Program-made: the position numbers and the translations under genes
Shown: positions 8,873 through 55,479 of the stretch, piece by piece
How positions within the stretch are numbered: position 1 is the stretch's first letter
Layout of the letters: every line of letters begins with the position of its first letter
Assembly: GCA_019242475.1 (NCBI GenBank)
Contig: JAFAVK010000094.1
Span: 1-64,000, forward strand
Direction of reading: 5' to 3'
DNA from: Acidobacteriota bacterium
Lineage (GTDB): Bacteria > Acidobacteriota > Blastocatellia > Pyrinomonadales > Pyrinomonadaceae
DNA length: 64,000 nucleotides
The notes under the pieces: generated by a model
Database searches by the model: none
Told to the model about the DNA's origin: nothing
The model's input: only the letters and a program-made list of their open reading frames with translations

Positions 8873-8874
8873 GG

Positions 8875-8963
8875 AATGATGAATGATGAGTGATGAGTGA
8901 TGAATTAAAAGCCTGTCGCTTCTCATTCATCACTCATCACTCATCACTCATCATTCATCATTT
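8875..8963. repeat. Heptamer-type intergenic inverted repeat (GATGAGT family) between livH and livM
   Basis: Arm AATGATGAATGATGAGTGATGAGTGATGA, short spacer, then its reverse complement; starts 3 nt after the livH stop, ends 6 nt before livM. Confidence 0.9.
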
Positions 8964-10072: not shown

Positions 10073-10932
10073 GCGGCGCACCCGAACCGAGCGACGTGCG
10101 GGCGACCAAGGAGGACGGCGTCTTGGCCGAGGCCGCGCGCACGGCGCGTGCGCAGGAGACTGCCCCGGACGGCGAGGCCGTCCTGCGCACGGACAAGGCG
10201 ACCATCCGTTTCGGCGGCCTCGTCGCCGTCAACTCCCTCGACATGGCCGTCAAGCGCGGCGAAATCTACGGCCTCATCGGCCCGAACGGCGCGGGCAAGA
10301 CCACCGTCTTCAACCTCCTGACCGGCGTCTACAAGCCCACCTCGGGCGAGATCTTTTTTCAGGGGCAGCGGGTGGACGGCCTGCGCCCCTACCAGATTTC
10401 GCGCCGCGGCGTCTCGCGCACCTTCCAGAACATACGGCTCTTCCCCGGCATGACGGTGCTCGAGAACGTGATGACGGCCTGCCACCGCCACGCGCGCCAG
10501 AATCTTCTGGACGCCGTGCTGCGCACGCCCCGCTTCGCGCGCGACGAGCGCGGGCACCGCGACTTCTGCATGGAGCTGCTGGAGATTTTCGACCTCGCGC
10601 GCTTCAAGGACGAGGGCGGGACTTCGCTCGCCTACGGCAACCAGCGGCGCCTGGAGATCGTGCGCGCGCTCGCCACCCGGCCGCAGCTCCTGCTGCTCGA
10701 CGAGCCGGCCGCCGGCATGAACCCTTCGGAGCAGGACGACCTCCTGAACCTGATTCACCAGATACGCGACCGCTTCGGCCTGACCATCCTGCTCGTCGAG
10801 CACAACATGAAGGTCGTCATGGGCGTCTGCGAGCGCATCCAGGTCGTGGACTACGGCAAGTCCATCGCCCTCGGCCTCCCGCAGGAGATTCGGAACAACG
10901 CGAAGGTGATCGAAGCGTACCTAGGAGACTAG
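10069..10932 (+). CDS. livG: Branched-chain amino-acid ABC transporter ATP-binding protein LivG
   Basis: GPNGAGKTTVFNLLTGVYKPTSGEI; RTFQNIRLFPGMTVLENV; overlaps the livM stop by 4 nt. Confidence 0.95.
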   Translation: MSGAPEPSDVRATKEDGVLAEAARTARAQETAPDGEAVLRTDKATIRFGGLVAVNSLDMAVKRGEIYGLIGPNGAGKTTVFNLLTGVYKPTSGEIFFQGQRVDGLRPYQISRRGVSRTFQNIRLFPGMTVLENVMTACHRHARQNLLDAVLRTPRFARDERGHRDFCMELLEIFDLARFKDEGGTSLAYGNQRRLEIVRALATRPQLLLLDEPAAGMNPSEQDDLLNLIHQIRDRFGLTILLVEHNMKVVMGVCERIQVVDYGKSIALGLPQEIRNNAKVIEAYLGD

Positions 10933-11011
10933 TGATGAGTGATGAGTGATGAGTGATGAGTTGAAGGCCGCCTGTCTTCAACTCAGCACTCATCACTCAT
11001 CACTCATCACT
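10931..11011. repeat. Heptamer-type intergenic inverted repeat (GATGAGT family) between livG and livF
   Basis: 36-nt arms with one mismatch (AGTGATGAGTGATGAGTGATGAGTGATGAGTTGAAG), 9-nt spacer; begins in the livG TAG. Confidence 0.9.
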
Positions 11012-11734: not shown

Positions 11735-11854
<120 letters not shown>

Positions 11855-27734: not shown

Positions 27735-28102
27735 GCGCGGAGAAGGTCTTCGAGCCCGCGCCGGTCAAACCGGAGATCACGTTCGACGTGGTCGAGCGTC
27801 TGGACGTGCGCGTCGGGACGATTGAGGCGGTCGGGGAGGTGAAGGGGTCGAGCAAGCTCCTGAAGCTCGACGTGAATTTCGGCGACCACCGGCGCACGAT
27901 CCTGGCGGGGATGAAGCAGGAGCGCGCCGACCCGCAGGAGGTCGTCGGCCGACAGGCGCTCTTCGTCGTCAACCTCGCGCCGCGGCGGATGGCGGGCGAG
28001 GTCTCCGAAGGGATGCTCTTCGACATCGGCTACGCCGACGGCATCACGCCCGCGCTCGCCACGCCGGAGAGGCCGGTGCCCGACGGCGCGCGCGCCGGTT
28101 GA
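27731..28102 (+). CDS. tRNA-binding-domain (EMAP/CsaA-like) protein
   Basis: ITFDVVERLDVRVGTIEAVGEVKGSSKLLKLDVNFGDHRRTILAGMK...VVNLAPRRMAGEVSEGMLF. Confidence 0.85.
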   Translation: MSAEKVFEPAPVKPEITFDVVERLDVRVGTIEAVGEVKGSSKLLKLDVNFGDHRRTILAGMKQERADPQEVVGRQALFVVNLAPRRMAGEVSEGMLFDIGYADGITPALATPERPVPDGARAG

Positions 28103-29334
28103 AAGTGTCGGTGACGGAAAACGAAATGACGACAGAGACGACGACCACGTTTGCGGAGATCGCGGCGCGCGAGGGGGAGTTCCAGCTCGCGACGTACAAG
28201 AAGTTCCCGTTCGCGCCCGTGAAGGGCGAGGGCTGTTGGGTCGAGACGAGCGAGGGCGAGCGCTTCCTCGACCTGTACGGCGGGCACGCCGTCTGCGCGA
28301 CGGGCCACTGCCACCCGCACGTCGTGAAGGCGCTGCGCGAGCAGGCGGGGCGTCTGCTCTTCTACTCGAACGTCGTCTACTCGGACGTGCGCGCGGCGGC
28401 GGCGGAGAGGCTGGTCGGGTGCGCGCCGGCAGAGATTACGAAAGCCTTCTTCTGCAACTCGGGCACGGAGGCGAACGAGAACGCGATGCGCATGGCGCGC
28501 ATGAAGACGGGCCGGGAGAATGTCATCACGTTCACGGGCGGCTTCCACGGGCGCACGGCCGACTCCATCAGCGCGACCTTCCTCGGCAAGTACCGAGAGA
28601 TCGGCAAGCCGAACGTGCCGGGCCACCTCTGCGCGGAGTTCGGGTCGATTGAATCGGTCGAGGCGCTGGCCGACGAGACGGTGGCGGCCGTGATGCTTGA
28701 GCCGGTGCAGTCGATGGCGGGCGTGGCGACGGCGCCGCCGGAGTTCTTTCAAGAGCTGCGTCGCCTGTGCGACGAGCGCGGGATGCTGCTCATCTTCGAC
28801 GAGGTGCAGACGGGGATCGGGCGCACGGGCTCCTGGTTCTTCGCGGGGAGCGAGGCGGCGGGCGGCGTCGTGCCGGACGTGATTACGCTGGCGAAGGCTT
28901 TGGGGAGCGGCGTGCCGGTGGGGGCTTGTTTGACGACCGAAGGCGTGGCGTCGGCGATTAAGGAGAACGATTTGGGGACGACCTTCGGCGGCGGGATGCT
29001 GGCGATGGCGGCCGTCTCGGCGACGCTCGGGGCGATTGAGGCGGACGGGATGTTGGAGAACGCGCGCGCCGTCGAGTCCTTCCTGCGCGACAGCCTGGGC
29101 GGCGTGCCGGGCGTGGCGGGCGTGCGCGGCGTGGGGCTGCTGCTCGGCATCGAGTTCGAGGAGCCCGTCGCGGCGAAAGTCAACAAGGCGCTGCTCGAAC
29201 GGCGCATCATCACGGGCACTTCGAGCGACCCGAAGGTCTTGCGCCTGCTCCCGCCGCTCTGCCTGACCGTGGAGGAGGCCGGGCTCTTCGTCGAGGCGTT
29301 GAAGGAGATTGGCGCGGATGAGATTGGCGCGTAA
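28099..29334 (+). CDS. argD: Class III aminotransferase (acetyl-/succinyl-ornithine aminotransferase)
   Basis: LDLYGGHAVCATGHCHPHVVKAL; FFCNSGTEANENAMRMAR; LIFDEVQTGIGRTG; operon context. Confidence 0.92.
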   Translation: MKVSVTENEMTTETTTTFAEIAAREGEFQLATYKKFPFAPVKGEGCWVETSEGERFLDLYGGHAVCATGHCHPHVVKALREQAGRLLFYSNVVYSDVRAAAAERLVGCAPAEITKAFFCNSGTEANENAMRMARMKTGRENVITFTGGFHGRTADSISATFLGKYREIGKPNVPGHLCAEFGSIESVEALADETVAAVMLEPVQSMAGVATAPPEFFQELRRLCDERGMLLIFDEVQTGIGRTGSWFFAGSEAAGGVVPDVITLAKALGSGVPVGACLTTEGVASAIKENDLGTTFGGGMLAMAAVSATLGAIEADGMLENARAVESFLRDSLGGVPGVAGVRGVGLLLGIEFEEPVAAKVNKALLERRIITGTSSDPKVLRLLPPLCLTVEEAGLFVEALKEIGADEIGA

Positions 29335-29337
29335 GCG

Positions 29338-30342
29338 ATGCCGAGGAATTTTCTGACAACCGCCGACTGGACGCGCGAGGAGCTTGAGGGCCTGCTCGCG
29401 GCGGCCGCGCGCTTGAAGAAGGGTGAGGACGCGTCGAAGCCGCTCGCCGGCAAGAGCGTCGGGCTCGTCTTCTTCAACCCGAGTTTGCGGACGCGCGCGT
29501 CGATGCAGGTCGGCGTGTACGAGCTGGGCGGGAACGCCGTCGTCTTGGAGCCGGGCGGGACGAGCTGGACGCTGGAGCACCGCGAGGGCGTCGTGATGGA
29601 CGGCGACAAGACCGAGCACGTCAAGGAGTTCGTGCGCGTGCTCGGGCGCTACACGGCGGCCGTCGGCGTGCGCACCTTCGCCGCGCTCAAGGACTGGAAG
29701 GAGGAGCGGCAAGACCCCGTGCTCGCCGCCTTCGCCCGGTACTCGGACGTGCCCGTCATCAACCTTGAGTCGGCGATGCATCACCCGTGTCAGGCGTTGG
29801 CGGACATGTTGACCGTGCGCGAGAAGCTGGGCGGGGGGCGCAAGCGCGTGCTGCTGACGTGGGCGTGGCACCCGAAGGCTCTGCCGATGGCGGTGCCGAA
29901 CAGCTTCGCGCTGGCGGCGGCGCAGATGGGGCACGACCTGACGATTGCGCACCCGCCCGGCTACGAGCTGGACGAAGACCTCATCCGCGAGGTCAACTCG
30001 CGCGCCTTCGACGCGGGCGCGACCGTCAACGTGACGCGCGACGTGGAGGAAGCCTTCGACGGCCAGCAGGTCGTCTACGCGAAGAGCTGGGGGAGCAAGG
30101 AGTTCTACGGGAGCCCGCAGGACGACCTGGAGGAGCGCGCGCCCTACCGCGGCGAGTGGATCGTGGACGCCCCGAAGATGGCGCGCACCGACGGCGCGGT
30201 CTTCCTGCACTGCCTCCCCGTCCGCCGCAACTGCATCGTCACCGACGAGGTGATTGATTCGCCGGCCTCCGTCGTCATCGACGAGGCCGAGAACCGCCTC
30301 CACGTACAGAAGGCCGTCATGGCGGCACTGCTCAAGGGGTAG
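29338..30342 (+). CDS. argF': N-acyl-ornithine carbamoyltransferase (AOTCase/SOTCase family)
   Basis: VFFNPSLRTRASMQVGVYELGGNAVVLEPGGTSWTLEHREGVVMDGDKTEHVKE; LTWAWHPKALPMAVPNSF; HCLPVRRNCIVTDEVIDSP; ENRLHVQKAVMAALL. Confidence 0.9.
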   Translation: MPRNFLTTADWTREELEGLLAAAARLKKGEDASKPLAGKSVGLVFFNPSLRTRASMQVGVYELGGNAVVLEPGGTSWTLEHREGVVMDGDKTEHVKEFVRVLGRYTAAVGVRTFAALKDWKEERQDPVLAAFARYSDVPVINLESAMHHPCQALADMLTVREKLGGGRKRVLLTWAWHPKALPMAVPNSFALAAAQMGHDLTIAHPPGYELDEDLIREVNSRAFDAGATVNVTRDVEEAFDGQQVVYAKSWGSKEFYGSPQDDLEERAPYRGEWIVDAPKMARTDGAVFLHCLPVRRNCIVTDEVIDSPASVVIDEAENRLHVQKAVMAALLKG

Positions 30343-30364
30343 AGCGAGGGAGGGAAGCGTGAGC

Positions 30365-31252
30365 ATGCATCAGCAACGGCTCGACCTGCTGCGCGAGGCG
30401 CTGCCCTACATCCAGCGGTTCAAGGGCAAGACGTTCGTGGTGAAGCTGTCGGGGAAGGTGACGGACGAGCCGGAGAACCTCGCGTCGCTCGCGGAGGAGC
30501 TGGCGCTCTTGCACCAGGTCGGCATCCGCGTCTGTGTCATCCACGGCGGCGGGAAGCAGTTGACCGAGCTGGCCGAGCTGATGGGGGTCGAGCAGACCAT
30601 CATCAACGGCCGCCGGGTCACGGACGACGCGACGCTCGACATGGCGAAGATGATCTTCGCCGGCAAGATTAATACGGACATCCTCGCCGCGCTGCGCCAG
30701 CGCGGGGTACACGCCGTGGGGTTGTCGGGCGTGGACGGCAACATCGTCCGCGCCGAGCGCCGCCCGCCCAAAGAGATCGTCAACCAGGAGACGGGCAAGA
30801 GCGAGCGCGTGGACTTCGGGCACGTCGGGGACGTGTTGGAGATCGACGACCGCCTGCTGCGCGTGCTCCTCGACCACGACTACCTGCCGGTCGTCTCCTC
30901 TTTGGGTGCGGACGACGAGGGGCGTGTCTTCAACATCAACGCCGACACCATCGCCGCCGAGATCGCCGTCCGGCTCGAAGCCGAGAAGCTGGTCATGCTC
31001 TCGGACGTGGACGGCATCTACCTCCGCCCCGGCGAGCAGGCGACGAAAATCTCCCGCCTCACGGCCGCCGAGGTCGAGGCGCTCATCCGCGACGGCGTCG
31101 CCACCGGCGGCATGATTCCGAAACTACAGAACATCACCGAGCTGCTGCGCCGCGGCGTCCGCAGCGCCCACATCATCAAAGGCTCCTTGCGCAACGCCCT
31201 CCTCTCCGAAGTCTTCACCGACGAGGGCACGGGCACGATGATCATCGCCTGA
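30365..31252 (+). CDS. argB: N-acetyl-(or N-succinyl-)glutamate kinase
   Basis: KTFVVKLSGKV; VCVIHGGGKQLTELAELMGVEQTIINGRRVTD; KLVMLSDVDGIY; GGMIPKLQN. Confidence 0.95.
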   Translation: MHQQRLDLLREALPYIQRFKGKTFVVKLSGKVTDEPENLASLAEELALLHQVGIRVCVIHGGGKQLTELAELMGVEQTIINGRRVTDDATLDMAKMIFAGKINTDILAALRQRGVHAVGLSGVDGNIVRAERRPPKEIVNQETGKSERVDFGHVGDVLEIDDRLLRVLLDHDYLPVVSSLGADDEGRVFNINADTIAAEIAVRLEAEKLVMLSDVDGIYLRPGEQATKISRLTAAEVEALIRDGVATGGMIPKLQNITELLRRGVRSAHIIKGSLRNALLSEVFTDEGTGTMIIA

Positions 31253-31300
31253 AGAACAATCGCCGCATCAGCAACGCCCTCCTGCGGCCCCGCGGATGAA

Positions 31301-31594
31301 ATCTGCGTTAACGCAACTACCATCTGCGTCAACGCAACTACCATCTGCGTCAACGCAACTGCCATCCGCGTTGACGCAACTGCCATCCGCGTTAACGCAA
31401 CTGCCATCCGCGTTAACGCAAACACCATCTGCGTCAACGCAGATGACAATTGCGTTAACGCAACTACCATCTGCGTTAACGCAACTACCATCTGCGTTGA
31501 CGCAACTACCATCTGCGTTGACGCAACTGACATCTGCGTTAACGCAGATTTCATCTGCGGGGCCGCAGATTCCATCTGCGGGCATGCGAACAAT
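31301..31594. repeat. Minisatellite: 14 in-phase units of 21 bp, each with a dyad centred on GCGTTAACGC
   Basis: Unit consensus ATCTGCGTTAACGCAACTACC; unit starts at 31301, 31322, 31343, 31364, 31385, 31406, 31427, 31448, 31469, 31490, 31511, 31532, 31553, 31574; degenerate units at both flanks. Confidence 0.95.
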
Positions 31595-31858
31595 GTCCGC
31601 GAGAGCGCAAATCTCCTTATCTATCTTACAGATACGGGCCGGCGTCCTGCGGGACTGACCAGCGGCCGGTTGAAAAAAGCTTGTCAGGACGGGCGAGTGG
31701 GGATAAAATCCGCCCGCCCAAGTCTCCGGCGCGACTCTCACCGCCACAAGGTCGCGCCCACGGGGGCAAGAACAGACAGGTCACTTGACGCGAACGCGGC
31801 GCTTCACGCCGAAACGCCGCACGACCTCAACCGCCCGCCTAACCAGGAGTGACTACCC

Positions 31859-32554
31859 ATGCCAATCCCGCGCACAGACAACGAGCTGATGGTCTGGCTC
31901 AACAACTTCTCGACCGGCTTCGCCGCGCACGCCGCCGCGCTCGGCTTCACCACGGCCGAAGTGAATGCAATCAACGCAGACGCCGCCATGGTGAGCTTCC
32001 TCATCGGAGACCTCGTCCCGACCTACAAGTTCGCCCTCAAGGCGTGCAGCACTTACAAAGAACGCATCATCACAGGCCCGCTCGGAAGCGCGGGCGGCCC
32101 GCCGCCGGGGACACCGACGACGGCCGTGGCGCCCGCGACCGTCCCGCCCGGCATCCTCGCGCGCCTGCGCACCCTCGTCCAGCGCATCCAACTCGCGCCC
32201 GCCTACACCGAAGAGATCGGCATCGCCCTCGGCATCACGGGAGCACAGGGCGGCGGGCCGTCCGCCCCGGTCTCGACGCCGAAGCCGACGCTCAAGGCGC
32301 GCTCGAACGGCCCCGGCACGTTGCAAGTCGATTTCACCAAGGAGAGATTCAACGGCGTGCTCGTCGAGAGCCGGCGCGCGGGCGAGGAGGGCTGGCAGCA
32401 GCTCGGGCTCGTCAGCTACAGCCCCTATCTCGACGGGCGCCCGCCGCTGGAGACCGGCAAGCCGGAGGTGAGAGAATTCCGCGCCCGCTACATCCTCCAC
32501 GACCAGGCCACGGGCGAGTGGTCGGACATCGTGACGGCCACCTTCGTCCCGTAG
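31859..32554 (+). CDS. Uncharacterised protein with C-terminal Fn3-like domain
   Basis: MPIPRTDNELMVWLNNFSTGFAAHAAALGFTTAEVNAINADAAM; proline-rich linker; beta-rich C-terminus (GVLVESRRAGEEGWQQLG...FRARYILHD). Confidence 0.6.
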   Translation: MPIPRTDNELMVWLNNFSTGFAAHAAALGFTTAEVNAINADAAMVSFLIGDLVPTYKFALKACSTYKERIITGPLGSAGGPPPGTPTTAVAPATVPPGILARLRTLVQRIQLAPAYTEEIGIALGITGAQGGGPSAPVSTPKPTLKARSNGPGTLQVDFTKERFNGVLVESRRAGEEGWQQLGLVSYSPYLDGRPPLETGKPEVREFRARYILHDQATGEWSDIVTATFVP

Positions 32555-32563
32555 TCGAGGCCG

Positions 32564-32704
32564 CCCGGGAGCGCGGGCATCCTGCCCGCCAAAGCGTGCC
32601 CCGGCACGCTTAGCAGCGAAGCGCCACCTCTCAACGTTGAGAGGTGGCGCTTCTTTGCATTCGCGCTGCGCGCTCATGGCGGGCAGGATGCCCGCGCTCC
32701 CGGG
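32564..32704. repeat. Nested palindromic element: 27-bp perfect IR enclosing two internal perfect hairpins
   Basis: Outer CCCGGGAGCGCGGGCATCCTGCCCGCC (32564-32590) / exact complement 32678-32704; inner 36-nt palindrome 32618-32653; AGCGTGCC-CC-GGCACGCT at ~32593-32610. Confidence 0.95.
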
Positions 32705-32722
32705 GGCTGTCGAATGTCTGCC

Positions 32723-33847
32723 TTAGTTGCTCCCCCTGTCGCGCATGTAGATCAGCTCTTCGACGGTGGGGGCGGTGCCGCGGGACTTGGCGCGGCGGAT
32801 GAAGTCGGAGGTGACGCCGTGGTCGCGCATGCGGATGAGCTGTTCGACCTGGAGGTGTGAGTAGCCGAGGTCTTGCAGCTCGCGGATGAACTCGACCGTG
32901 ACGCCGTGGTCGCGGATGTGTATGAGCTGTTCGAGCGAGAGCGAGTCGTAGCCCTCGGCGCGCAGCTTTTTGATGAAATCGGGCGTCACGCCGTGGTCGC
33001 GGACGCTGATGAGCCCGTCGAGCGAAGGCGTCTCGAAGCCCGCCGCCCGCAGCTCGCGGATGAAGGAGGGCGTGACGCCGTGGTCGCGCGTCCGCACCAG
33101 CTCCTCCGCCTGTAGGTCTCGGAAGCCCGCATCGCGCAGCTCGCCGACGTATTCGAGGCTGACCCCGTGGTCGCGCATCCGCACGAGCGCGTCGGCCGTG
33201 CCGAGCCGGTAGCCCAATCCGCTCAACCCGCGCACGTAGTCGGCGCGCACGCCGTGCTCGCCCATGCGGACGAGCTGTTCGAGCGTCGGCCGCTCGTAGC
33301 CCGCCGACTTCAGCTCGTCGAGCAGCGCGAGCCCGACCTCGGCCATCGCCAGCCGGAAGAGCTGCCGCGTGTCGGGCGTGCCGACGCCGCGCCGCGCCAA
33401 CTCGGCCGCGAAGCCCTGGTCGGGGACGAAGACGAAGTGGCCCGAGCCGTTCCCCTGCCGGAACCAGCCCTCGCAGGCGAACGTGCCCGCGTCCCGCCGC
33501 AGGTCGAAGCGGACGTTGGTGCCCGAGGCGCTGAGCGCCTGCTCGCGCGTCAGCCCTTGCAAAGACTCGGGCGCCACGTCGCGCGACGTGTTCCAGAAGC
33601 TCTCGTGCTTGCGCCCGTCCTGGCCCACGCGGTTCTCGTTGAAGCGCAGCGTGAGCGAAGTCTTCCCCCCGTCGGTCTGGTACTCGACGAGCCACTGCCC
33701 CTCGAAGCGCTCGGCCTGCGCCGCGGCGACGGGCGCGAGCCTGGGCGCGGCGAGCGGCGCGGAGAGCGCGAGCGCGACGAGCGCGCAGGTCAGGAACGCG
33801 AGCCGAACCGCGCGGACGCGCGCGGCGCGAAGGTTCTGCCACTTCAT
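32723..33847 (-). CDS. Exported protein with ~6 tandem 29-aa repeats ([IMV]RDHGVT..FI.EL...GY..L..EQLI.)
   Basis: Signal peptide; repeats such as VRDHGVTPDFIKKLRAEGYDSLSLEQLIH / IRDHGVTVEFIRELQDLGYSHLQVEQLIR. Confidence 0.75.
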   Translation of the reverse strand: MKWQNLRAARVRAVRLAFLTCALVALALSAPLAAPRLAPVAAAQAERFEGQWLVEYQTDGGKTSLTLRFNENRVGQDGRKHESFWNTSRDVAPESLQGLTREQALSASGTNVRFDLRRDAGTFACEGWFRQGNGSGHFVFVPDQGFAAELARRGVGTPDTRQLFRLAMAEVGLALLDELKSAGYERPTLEQLVRMGEHGVRADYVRGLSGLGYRLGTADALVRMRDHGVSLEYVGELRDAGFRDLQAEELVRTRDHGVTPSFIRELRAAGFETPSLDGLISVRDHGVTPDFIKKLRAEGYDSLSLEQLIHIRDHGVTVEFIRELQDLGYSHLQVEQLIRMRDHGVTSDFIRRAKSRGTAPTVEELIYMRDRGSN

Positions 33848-33987
33848 GTCGGTCTCTCCTGTTCGGGCGGATTCACGGGCGGCCGTTTGCAGGGAACACA
33901 CCGCCGCGCACCTGTTTGTGACAGGGGGCGGGCGCGGGTTTCAGTTTTTTTCACTCCCGCCGCCACGAGGATGAGAGAATCAGACGG

Positions 33988-35106
33988 ATGCGACGCCATA
34001 GCGGTCAGATGAGTTTGGTGCGTAGAGGGTCGGAGGGCGGGCCGCGCCCGTTCGCGCGGCGGCTTTTGCGCGAGTGGCGGCTGCGTGGCTGGCCCGTGCG
34101 CGGCGAGCGCGTGCTGTGCGCCGTCTCGGGCGGGGCGGACTCGACGGCGCTGCTGCTCGGGCTCGAAGAGTTGAAGCGCGGGGGGCTGCTCGGCGTGGAT
34201 TTGACGGCGGCGCACCTCGACCACGGGCTGCGCGGCGAGGCCGGCGCCGAAGACGCGCGCTGGGTGGAGGGGCTCGCGCGCGCGTACGGCTTCGAGTGCG
34301 TCGTCGGGCGCGCGGCCCTTTCGGAGGGGGCGCGTGAGAACCTTGAGCAGGCGGCGCGGCGCGCGCGTTACGAGTTCCTCGCCGAAGCGGCGCGCGCGTG
34401 CGGGGCGCGCGCGGTGCTCGCGGCGCACACGCTCGACGACCAGGCCGAGACCGTCCTGCTCCGCCTGCTGCGCGGGAGCGGCGCCGAAGGGCTCGCCGGC
34501 ATGGCGCCCGAGCGCGCGCTCGAAGCGGGAGGGGAAGTCCGCCTGCGCCGGCCGCTCCTGAGCTGGGCGCGCCGCGCCGACACCGAAGGCTTCTGCCGCG
34601 AGCGCGGCGTCGAGTTCCGCTCCGACGCGATGAACGAAGACGAACGCTTCGCGCGCGTGCGCGTGCGGCGCACGCTCCTGCCGCTGCTCGAAACCCTCAA
34701 CCCGCGCGCGGCCGAGACCCTGGCGCGCACGGCCGCCCTGCTGCGCGAAGACTCCGCCGCGCTCGACGCATTGGCCGCCGCGCTGCTCGCAGAGGCGCGC
34801 CCGGAAGTTGACGAAAGTGCTGGGGAAGGAACGTCGGAAGAGGCGGCGGCGCACCCTCTCAAAGTCGATGCGCTCAGGCGCGCGGCGCCCGCGCTCAGGC
34901 GCCGCGTCTTGCGGCTCTGGCTCGCGCGCGAGCGGGGCGATTTGCGCCGTCTCTCACGCGCACACCTGCTCGGCGTCGAACGTCTCCTCGAAGGCTCGCG
35001 CGGCGGCCGCGTCGCCGAACTCCCCGGCGGCGCCCGCGTCGAACGCCGCCGCAACCTCCTCCACTTCCGCCCCGCGGCGCAAAGAAAAATCGAGCACGGA
35101 ACATAA
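33988..35106 (+). CDS. tilS: tRNA(Ile)-lysidine synthetase
   Basis: VLCAVSGGADSTALLLGLEEL; AAHLDHGLRGE; AHTLDDQAETVLLRLLRGSG. Confidence 0.92.
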   Translation: MRRHSGQMSLVRRGSEGGPRPFARRLLREWRLRGWPVRGERVLCAVSGGADSTALLLGLEELKRGGLLGVDLTAAHLDHGLRGEAGAEDARWVEGLARAYGFECVVGRAALSEGARENLEQAARRARYEFLAEAARACGARAVLAAHTLDDQAETVLLRLLRGSGAEGLAGMAPERALEAGGEVRLRRPLLSWARRADTEGFCRERGVEFRSDAMNEDERFARVRVRRTLLPLLETLNPRAAETLARTAALLREDSAALDALAAALLAEARPEVDESAGEGTSEEAAAHPLKVDALRRAAPALRRRVLRLWLARERGDLRRLSRAHLLGVERLLEGSRGGRVAELPGGARVERRRNLLHFRPAAQRKIEHGT

Positions 35107-35128
35107 ACTCCTCTCCGGCCAGTGATCG

Positions 35129-35157
35129 TTGACGTGCAACCTCGGCGGGCGTATAAG
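35129..35157 (+). promoter_or_regulatory. Predicted promoter TTGACG-N17-TATAAG (copy 1)
   Basis: TTGACG 35129-35134, TATAAG 35152-35157. Confidence 0.7.
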
Positions 35158-35202
35158 ACGCCTATCGGGTAACCTCCGGCTGCTTAAAAAGTCTTAGTCA
35201 TC

Positions 35203-35238
35203 ATGGGCTCCGCCAGGCTCACCAATCTCTTGAAGTAA
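35203..35238 (+). CDS. Leader ORF MGSARLTNLLK (copy 1)
   Basis: ATGGGCTCCGCCAGGCTCACCAATCTCTTGAAGTAA, 9 nt before the downstream ATG; near-identical copy at 36512. Confidence 0.5.
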   Translation: MGSARLTNLLK

Positions 35239-35247
35239 GGAGACGCC

Positions 35248-36330
35248 ATGAACGTCCGCAGACCAGGCCGCCCCTTCCGCCGCAAAAACCTCTTCGGCGC
35301 ATTCATCGTCCCTGTGCTCTCGCTCGTCACGTTGGCGGGGCGCGCGCCGGGTGCCGGGTATCCGCGGCCGCAGGGCGGAGGGGGCGCGGTGCGAGTCGTC
35401 CCCTCAGACATGGATATGTGCGCCGCGCCCGCGCGCCCCGGTGATGCCTGGGACGGGTTCTGCCTTCGCGGAAAGGTCAAAGCCCTCACGGATGAGTTGA
35501 GGGCGGCGCGGGTAGAGGGTGGCCGTGTGGAGGACGGAGAGCTTATAGAAATAGTCAAAGAGAGCTTCGACGGGCGCGGCCGACGCACCCTGCGCGAAAT
35601 GAGCAGCAACCACCCCGGCCCGGTCGGCGCGGCCTTCAGCAAACTCGTTTACAGCTACGACCCGAGCGGGCGCATGACCGGCTGGATGTCTTACGAGGCG
35701 GGGAGCACTGTGCCGGAATTGGTCGTCGTCCTTTCGTACGACGAGCGCGGTAACAGGGTCAGGGCGGAAGCGACGGGCGCGAAGCCGGGCGCGCGGTACG
35801 TCCAGGAGTTCACCTACGACGCAGGGGGGCGGCTGGTCGGGGACAGTTTCAGCCGCCTCACGGACGGCGGTTGGCAAACGCACAGGCAGGTCGTCACCTT
35901 TGAAGGGGCGGTGGCTCACGTCCGCGTTTACTCCCCCGACGGCGCGCTGGCGTCGAGGGGAACGACCCTCAGCGACGGGCGCGGCCACCTGCTCGGCGAA
36001 GAGGGGTACCGCGTCAACGCTCAGGGCGAAGAAGAACTCGACAGAAAGGTCACGTACCGGTACGACCCGAAGGGACGGCTGACGGAGGTCATCTACCAAC
36101 GGGCGGAAGAGAGGCTCGGCGCGCGGGCCGTCTACGAATACGACGAGAGCGGCAACGTGACCTCCCTGACGAGGTACAACGCCGACGGGAGTTTCGCCGC
36201 GAGCGGACACCGCGAGTACGAGTACGACGCGGCCGGGAACTGGGTGAGGCGCGTCGATTCCGCGCGGAGCTCGGAGGGCGCCGCGCCCGCGCCGTACCTG
36301 GTCGAACGCCGCCACATCACCTACTACTAA
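35248..36330 (+). CDS. Exported YD/RHS-repeat-like protein
   Basis: Signal-like N-terminus; YSYDPSGRMTGWMSYEAG, YRYDPKGRLTEVIYQ, YEYDESGNVTSLTRYNADG, YEYDAAGNWVRRV. Confidence 0.75.
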   Translation: MNVRRPGRPFRRKNLFGAFIVPVLSLVTLAGRAPGAGYPRPQGGGGAVRVVPSDMDMCAAPARPGDAWDGFCLRGKVKALTDELRAARVEGGRVEDGELIEIVKESFDGRGRRTLREMSSNHPGPVGAAFSKLVYSYDPSGRMTGWMSYEAGSTVPELVVVLSYDERGNRVRAEATGAKPGARYVQEFTYDAGGRLVGDSFSRLTDGGWQTHRQVVTFEGAVAHVRVYSPDGALASRGTTLSDGRGHLLGEEGYRVNAQGEEELDRKVTYRYDPKGRLTEVIYQRAEERLGARAVYEYDESGNVTSLTRYNADGSFAASGHREYEYDAAGNWVRRVDSARSSEGAAPAPYLVERRHITYY

Positions 36331-55362: not shown

Positions 55363-55382
55363 GTGAATACGACTTAAAACCT

Positions 55383-55465
55383 AAACGCAGAGTTCGCGTA
55401 GGCGCAGAGGGCGCGGAGAGTTTGATTCTCTCCGCGCCCTCTGCGCCTACGCGAACTCTCCGTTT
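55383..55465. repeat. Intergenic inverted repeat, 38-bp arms (37/38), 7-nt loop
   Basis: AAACGCAGAGTTCGCGTAGGCGCAGAGGGCGCGGAGAG-TTTGATT-CTCTCCGCGCCCTCTGCGCCTACGCGAACTCTCCGTTT. Confidence 0.95.
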
Positions 55466-55479
55466 AAGCTCTTACCGAC

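Follow-up and report, generated by a model that had tools for sequence, protein, structure and literature searches.

The tandem array downstream of argB in the window (the whole stretch of DNA that was analysed, 64,000 nucleotides) is probably a non-coding, dispersed, minisatellite-like fold-back element of a kind that accumulates behind genes. At least 16 intergenic array copies in the same genome display one architecture while belonging to several sequence families. A wider proposal is put forward more tentatively: several phyla may carry an undescribed class of elements defined by architecture, namely by units that are self-complementary, span about two turns of B-DNA (20.5-22 bp) and have a dyad axis at each helical turn. 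Such elements would repeatedly arise with new sequences, disperse and settle behind genes, and their period would be held by a DNA-level (helical) constraint.

Organization of the array downstream of argB

Tandem Repeats Finder assigns 11.7 copies of a 21-bp period to 31301-31546 (88% match, score 343); the divergent units 13 and 14 prolong the array to about 31594 (Table 1). A gap of 28 bp separates it from the argB stop codon, in agreement with the preliminary description, which had placed a 14-unit, 21-bp array directly downstream of this gene. Unit identity across units 1-12 is 88%. The strict 21-bp phase asserted in that description is also borne out: identity at lag 21 is 0.80, and lags of 7, 10, 11, 14, 20 and 22 remain at background. 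With up to two mismatches allowed, the dyad CTGCGTTAACGCA matches 24 times in the window, where 1.2 matches are expected; 23 of the matches lie within the array, and none of 100 shuffles gave so high a count. A second dyad axis is located inside the 'spacer' of the unit, and axes of self-complementarity follow one another every 10.5 bp.

The claim that every unit carries a dyad holds for most of the array but not for all of it, because one outer pair is broken in units 4-6 (CGCG..CGCA) and unit 14 is without its right arm. Units 4-6, which are adjacent, carry common variants, and unit 13 has exactly the sequence that had been given for it. Terminal inverted repeats of about 34 bp each are present in the array; the bounds used in the mid-axis test were taken from these inverted repeats themselves.

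Table 1. Features of the argB locus and of the array downstream of it (window coordinates)
Feature	Coordinates	Strand	Evidence
argB-type gene, N-acetylglutamate kinase, AA_kinase family	30365..31252	+	Pfam PF00696, E 5e-54
Left terminal inverted repeat, pairs with 31535-31568, axis 31425.0	31282..31315	.	inverted-repeat search; 21-nt exact inverted match; mid-axis tests
Core, 12 x 21-bp units, consensus ATCTGCGTTAACGCAACTACC, two dyad axes per unit	31301..31552	.	
Right terminal inverted repeat	31535..31568	.	inverted-repeat search; 21-nt exact inverted match; mid-axis test
Divergent end units 13 (TGCGGGGCCGCA) and 14 (right arm lost)	31553..31594	.	
Outer flank common with the same-family array on C78, GCGCAAATCTCC..TAT.TATCT	31605..31631	+	sequence comparison

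Orthologues of argB were found in 29 of the 30 relatives searched, and argD- and argF-type genes lie upstream of it. Directly 3' of the array, positions 31859-32554 (+) encode a 231-aa protein with no Pfam match. It is followed at 32723-33901 (-) by a protein of ~392 aa, likewise with no Pfam match, which contains tandem 29-residue repeats (MRDHGVTxxFIxxL...) encoded by an 87-bp repeat.

A class of symmetric arrays in the same genome

Surveyed de novo, a 1.09-Mb sample (17.7% of the genome) contained eight long symmetric arrays, all with a period of 21 and distributed over seven unrelated sequence families; extrapolation gives roughly 45 symmetric arrays in the whole genome, with wide Poisson limits. 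In all seven families the unit is 21 bp long and has two dyad axes, at a spacing of 10.5 bp. Examples of the units are CGGTTCGGAACCGAAATGTTT, TTCCTTCTCAGAGAAGGAAAT, TCTCCGAGACCCAACGTTCAC, CCTGACAAGTGAGTTGTCAGC and GCCATTGCGACGCGTCGCAAC. Symmetry was assessed by column-order permutation of the 21-bp unit, which leaves composition and repetition intact and destroys the dyads. Self-complementarity (0.69-0.83) exceeded all 300 permutations in every one of the eight arrays, with Z values of 5.2-6.8, and the controls (two coding repeats, a 12-bp repeat of a relative, and L237) gave Z near 0. The last of these, L237:9695-10050, also from this genome, is a long 21-bp array (unit GGCATCTGTTTCGCTGCGCGA) without strand symmetry; thus, the period can occur on its own.

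The preliminary description proposed a search for the dyad at other loci. A homologous second array is present on contig C78, where it follows a glycosyltransferase gene and has a similar outer flank, and the window array belongs to a multi-copy, multi-family class. Whole-genome searches located five contigs with the GGTTC family and four with the CTGACAA family; copies of these two families are roughly 70-90% identical and have unrelated flanks. Dispersed families number three, with 5, 4 and 2 copies, and at only about 70-90% likeness between copies their movement is not proven to be recent. The outer end motifs GCCTCCGAGG and CTTTTTG recur in three families, and no termini common to all array families were found.

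Among the 16 array copies examined, 13 are at most 80 bp from a stop codon. The exceptions are C79 (177 bp), C2 (410 bp) and C15, which is located between divergent genes. Gene calls for this analysis were based on codon-position composition only, and the ORF neighbouring the C116 array was taken from a looser gene calling, the stricter filter having dropped it.

Comparison with relatives and other genomes

The sole locus comparable on both flanks is C6. Both of its flanking genes are conserved at 87-91% in the relatives G003 and G002, and the array region of 439 bp between them corresponds to 61 or 67 bp in these genomes, where the replacement holds a heptamer hairpin of the type (GTGATAA)n-loop-(TTATCAC)n; the comparison defined no exact insertion point. 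In a one-sided case, C138, a GC hairpin beside the stop codon is common to G003, and the array beside this hairpin occurs only in its own genome. No such array was found behind argB in relatives. Three same-genus relatives contained no matching array of the families searched, and 385 kb from four relatives yielded no long symmetric array, against about 2.8 expected at the density of the array-bearing genome; with so small an expectation, the absence of the class from relatives is only suggestive.

Three other genomes were chosen for containing a 21-bp TGCG array, and arrays in them were then found regardless of period or symmetry. The seven arrays recovered have units of 21, 22, 41, 42 and 43 bp, which corresponds to about 20.5-22 bp per dyad unit, and six of them are more symmetric than permutations (p < 0.05). 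Because they had been selected for TGCG-N4-CGCA, a further set of contig matches was left out as evidence for symmetry or period; many of these matches are simple near-perfect repeats. Twenty-one base pairs correspond to two turns of B-DNA, and the data, drawn from few genomes, are suggestive of a DNA-level constraint behind the two-turn period.

Searches of plasmid and phage records gave no match to the array, and viral contigs gave none to the window unit, a loose pattern retrieving two short unrelated repeats. One Rokubacteria genome contains many short near-perfect 21-bp repeats of 3-6 copies, of the type GGGTGCGTCCGCGCACC, on many contigs (L041, L049, L051, L054-L056, L058, L060, L064, L077, L094 and L102); this is a separate multi-locus palindromic repeat. 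Two further arrays, L057:47-403 of a Verrucomicrobiaceae genome (TGCGGTTCCGCAGAATGGTTT) and L152:8720-9116 of the genome studied here (TGCGGGCGCGCAGAATGGTTT), have most of the unit in common, spacer included, a likeness that may stem from convergence or transfer.

Folding, dyads and alternative interpretations

Folded as RNA, the window array reaches -188 kcal/mol (z -21 against dinucleotide shuffles), an energy lower than that of all column-shuffled versions on both strands and of all unit-order shuffles on the + strand. In most arrays, the minimum free energy (MFE) is below column-shuffled nulls, and long exact inverted matches exceed such nulls in six of eight arrays. A universal mid-array hairpin, which initially appeared strong, was rejected: of the 14 arrays put to the stricter unit-order test, just four gave clear support for fold-back about the midpoint, namely the window array, L138, L253 and C79.

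Such folding could be functional in itself if a transcribed giant hairpin terminated or insulated transcription or protected the 3' end of argB mRNA, with selection acting on structure and not on sequence. Selection of this kind would explain how unrelated sequences come to have one architecture, and it fits the fold energies given above, the location of arrays just behind stop codons and the heptamer hairpin that two relatives carry at the C6 site. Nevertheless, this reading is unlikely. An intrinsic terminator (GC hairpin followed by a T-run) was not found on the argB strand at the window array, and the three terminator-like sites there (1.3 expected) are all on the opposite strand. At two loci, an ordinary hairpin already stands beside the array, and one array lies between divergent genes. 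The limited number of arrays with midpoint fold-back and the lack of excess pairing within dyads also count against it. A search of positions 28000-36000 against Rfam gave no match at the gathering threshold.

The pairing within dyads bears equally on the protein-binding (iteron- or centromere-like) array that had been considered before. With the right-hand sides permuted within arrays, covariation between the two sides of single dyads across units showed no excess in six of seven families, and local dyad maintenance by compensatory change was dropped as an explanation. Dyads that vary independently on their two sides and are not kept by compensatory changes argue against conserved dimer-binding sites. 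An array bound by a dimeric protein, as in an iteron, a centromere or a nucleoid organiser, with all sites on the same helical face, would account for the strict 21-bp phase and for dyads every 10.5 bp, but it is distinctly improbable. Such an array would be expected next to a gene for replication or partition and with a single conserved site sequence. The neighbours here are ordinary metabolic genes of arginine biosynthesis, with no Rep or Par genes adjoining and no plasmid or phage match, and the architecture is common to unrelated sequences. A structure-specific rather than sequence-specific protein may bind the arrays.

A single, purely local expansion of a minisatellite behind argB, with a dyad that is an accident of the seed sequence, is very improbable. 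Although it is compatible with the common variants of the adjacent units 4-6 and with the lack of an array behind argB in relatives, it is already contradicted by the dispersed copies, in particular by the second member with a common outer flank at C78, and seven other sampled arrays have the same period and symmetry.

Least credible of all is a protein-coding heptad repeat on one strand. The open heptad frames reported earlier are indeed open, as are more frames, e.g., ALTQMVV on the minus strand; they extend over 120-191 codons, 21 being a multiple of three. However, several frames are open on both strands at once, and Pfam gives only a below-threshold low-complexity match. On the + strand, the central variant TCAA changes an amino acid and TTGA is silent, yet both are equally frequent, with three occurrences apiece, and the 22-, 41- and 43-bp units of symmetric arrays in other genomes would break any frame. 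The suggestion that a heptad frame is translated was abandoned on these last two grounds, and the sequences indicate that the arrays are probably non-coding. A CRISPR array was dismissed because the 9-bp 'spacers' are themselves repeated and the neighbours are arg genes.

Proposed origin and maintenance

Among the candidates raised at the outset, it is the minisatellite that gains support, now with strong secondary structure. In the favoured scenario of a dispersed fold-back minisatellite, an array would begin by insertion or seeding in 3' intergenic DNA that tolerates it and would then grow and be homogenised by replication slippage across direct repeats, which explains the common variants of neighbouring units. 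Slippage alone leaves the constancy of 21 bp unexplained. Because each unit, with its two axes, is almost identical to its reverse complement, pairing is possible between any two stretches of the array on the same strand. Homogenisation might also proceed by copying one strand from its own complement, through template switching at a hairpin or cruciform, and such copying would explain strand symmetry. Template switching has been described to homogenise inverted-repeat arms and to invert spacers (PMC8604942; see also PMC8794818). As unit-level covariation showed no excess in six of seven families, this step is a conceivable rather than a demonstrated one. Finally, a putative mover would copy arrays, in part, to other places.

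The window locus itself cannot be dated, since the region behind argB is wholly different in G003.

If transcribed behind argB, the array would form a hairpin predicted to be very stable, and termination or mRNA decay could be altered as a by-product; the effects of REP/BIME hairpins on these processes provide a model.

Relation to known repeats

The closest known system is BrickBuilt, a minisatellite with a 23-nt unit inside a MITE of Porphyromonas gingivalis, which is present in about 19 dispersed, non-identical intergenic copies of variable copy number; it is predicted to form long stem-loops and has flanking end modules with small inverted repeats (PMC4596501). The window array is likewise intergenic, dispersed and predicted to form stem-loops, and the arrays exist as dispersed non-coding copies within one genome, as expected of a BrickBuilt-like MITE. 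In contrast to BrickBuilt, which is one sequence family, they comprise at least seven unrelated families of strand-symmetric 21-bp units with two dyad axes. Because common termini and target duplications are not demonstrated, the window array is not filed as a BrickBuilt member.

REP/BIME elements, reviewed together with RAYTs (PMC2817692, PMC3733652), are similar in being extragenic palindromes that are dispersed and often clustered. However, REPs are 20-40 bp long and have one conserved sequence per genome, whereas the present arrays are built of 21-bp units with array-specific sequences, unrelated units occurring in one genome. PARCELs (PMC2996958) also combine tandem repetition with DNA dyad symmetry and a patchy distribution across phyla, but they are 25-codon coding repeats, and these arrays appear to be non-coding with 21-bp units. 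Among the satellites of prokaryotes, the survey PMC6749651 includes, in the portion consulted, heptamer satellites of Chloroflexus and non-coding satellites of certain bacteria whose sequences are unique or particular to a family; neither strand symmetry nor a non-coding class of 21-bp units is described in that portion. A limited literature search found no description of the combination of strand symmetry, two-helical-turn period and multi-family architecture, and nothing that it retrieved matched 21-bp palindromic tandem repeats.

Annotation based on sequence overlooks a class of repeats that only symmetry and period reveal; here, the arrays show up as spurious heptad ORFs on each strand. 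Should the two-turn period reflect a real constraint, the arrays would provide a natural test of the ways in which bacterial satellite DNA is built by slippage, template switching and the formation of hairpins or cruciforms, and of 3' intergenic regions as a possible refuge for satellites.

Other dispersed hairpins with repetitive arms occur in the same genome. In the window, hairpins with tandem 7-mer arms, e.g., (AGTGATG)n-loop-(CATCACT)n, lie at 8874-8956, 10931-11011 and 11736-11854, the first two directly behind stop codons. About 100 hairpins with arms of at least 24 nt were counted in 1.09 Mb of the genome; most are 7-bp periodic, and the heptamer families are few and dispersed (e.g., GATGAGT, CAGTAGG and CCGTGAA). 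A related heptamer hairpin stands where the 21-bp array would be in two relatives. Another dispersed type, in which the hairpin arms consist of CACAGAGACACAGAGG-like 8-9-mer repeats, is represented at 55382-55466 and at L148:19878-19954.
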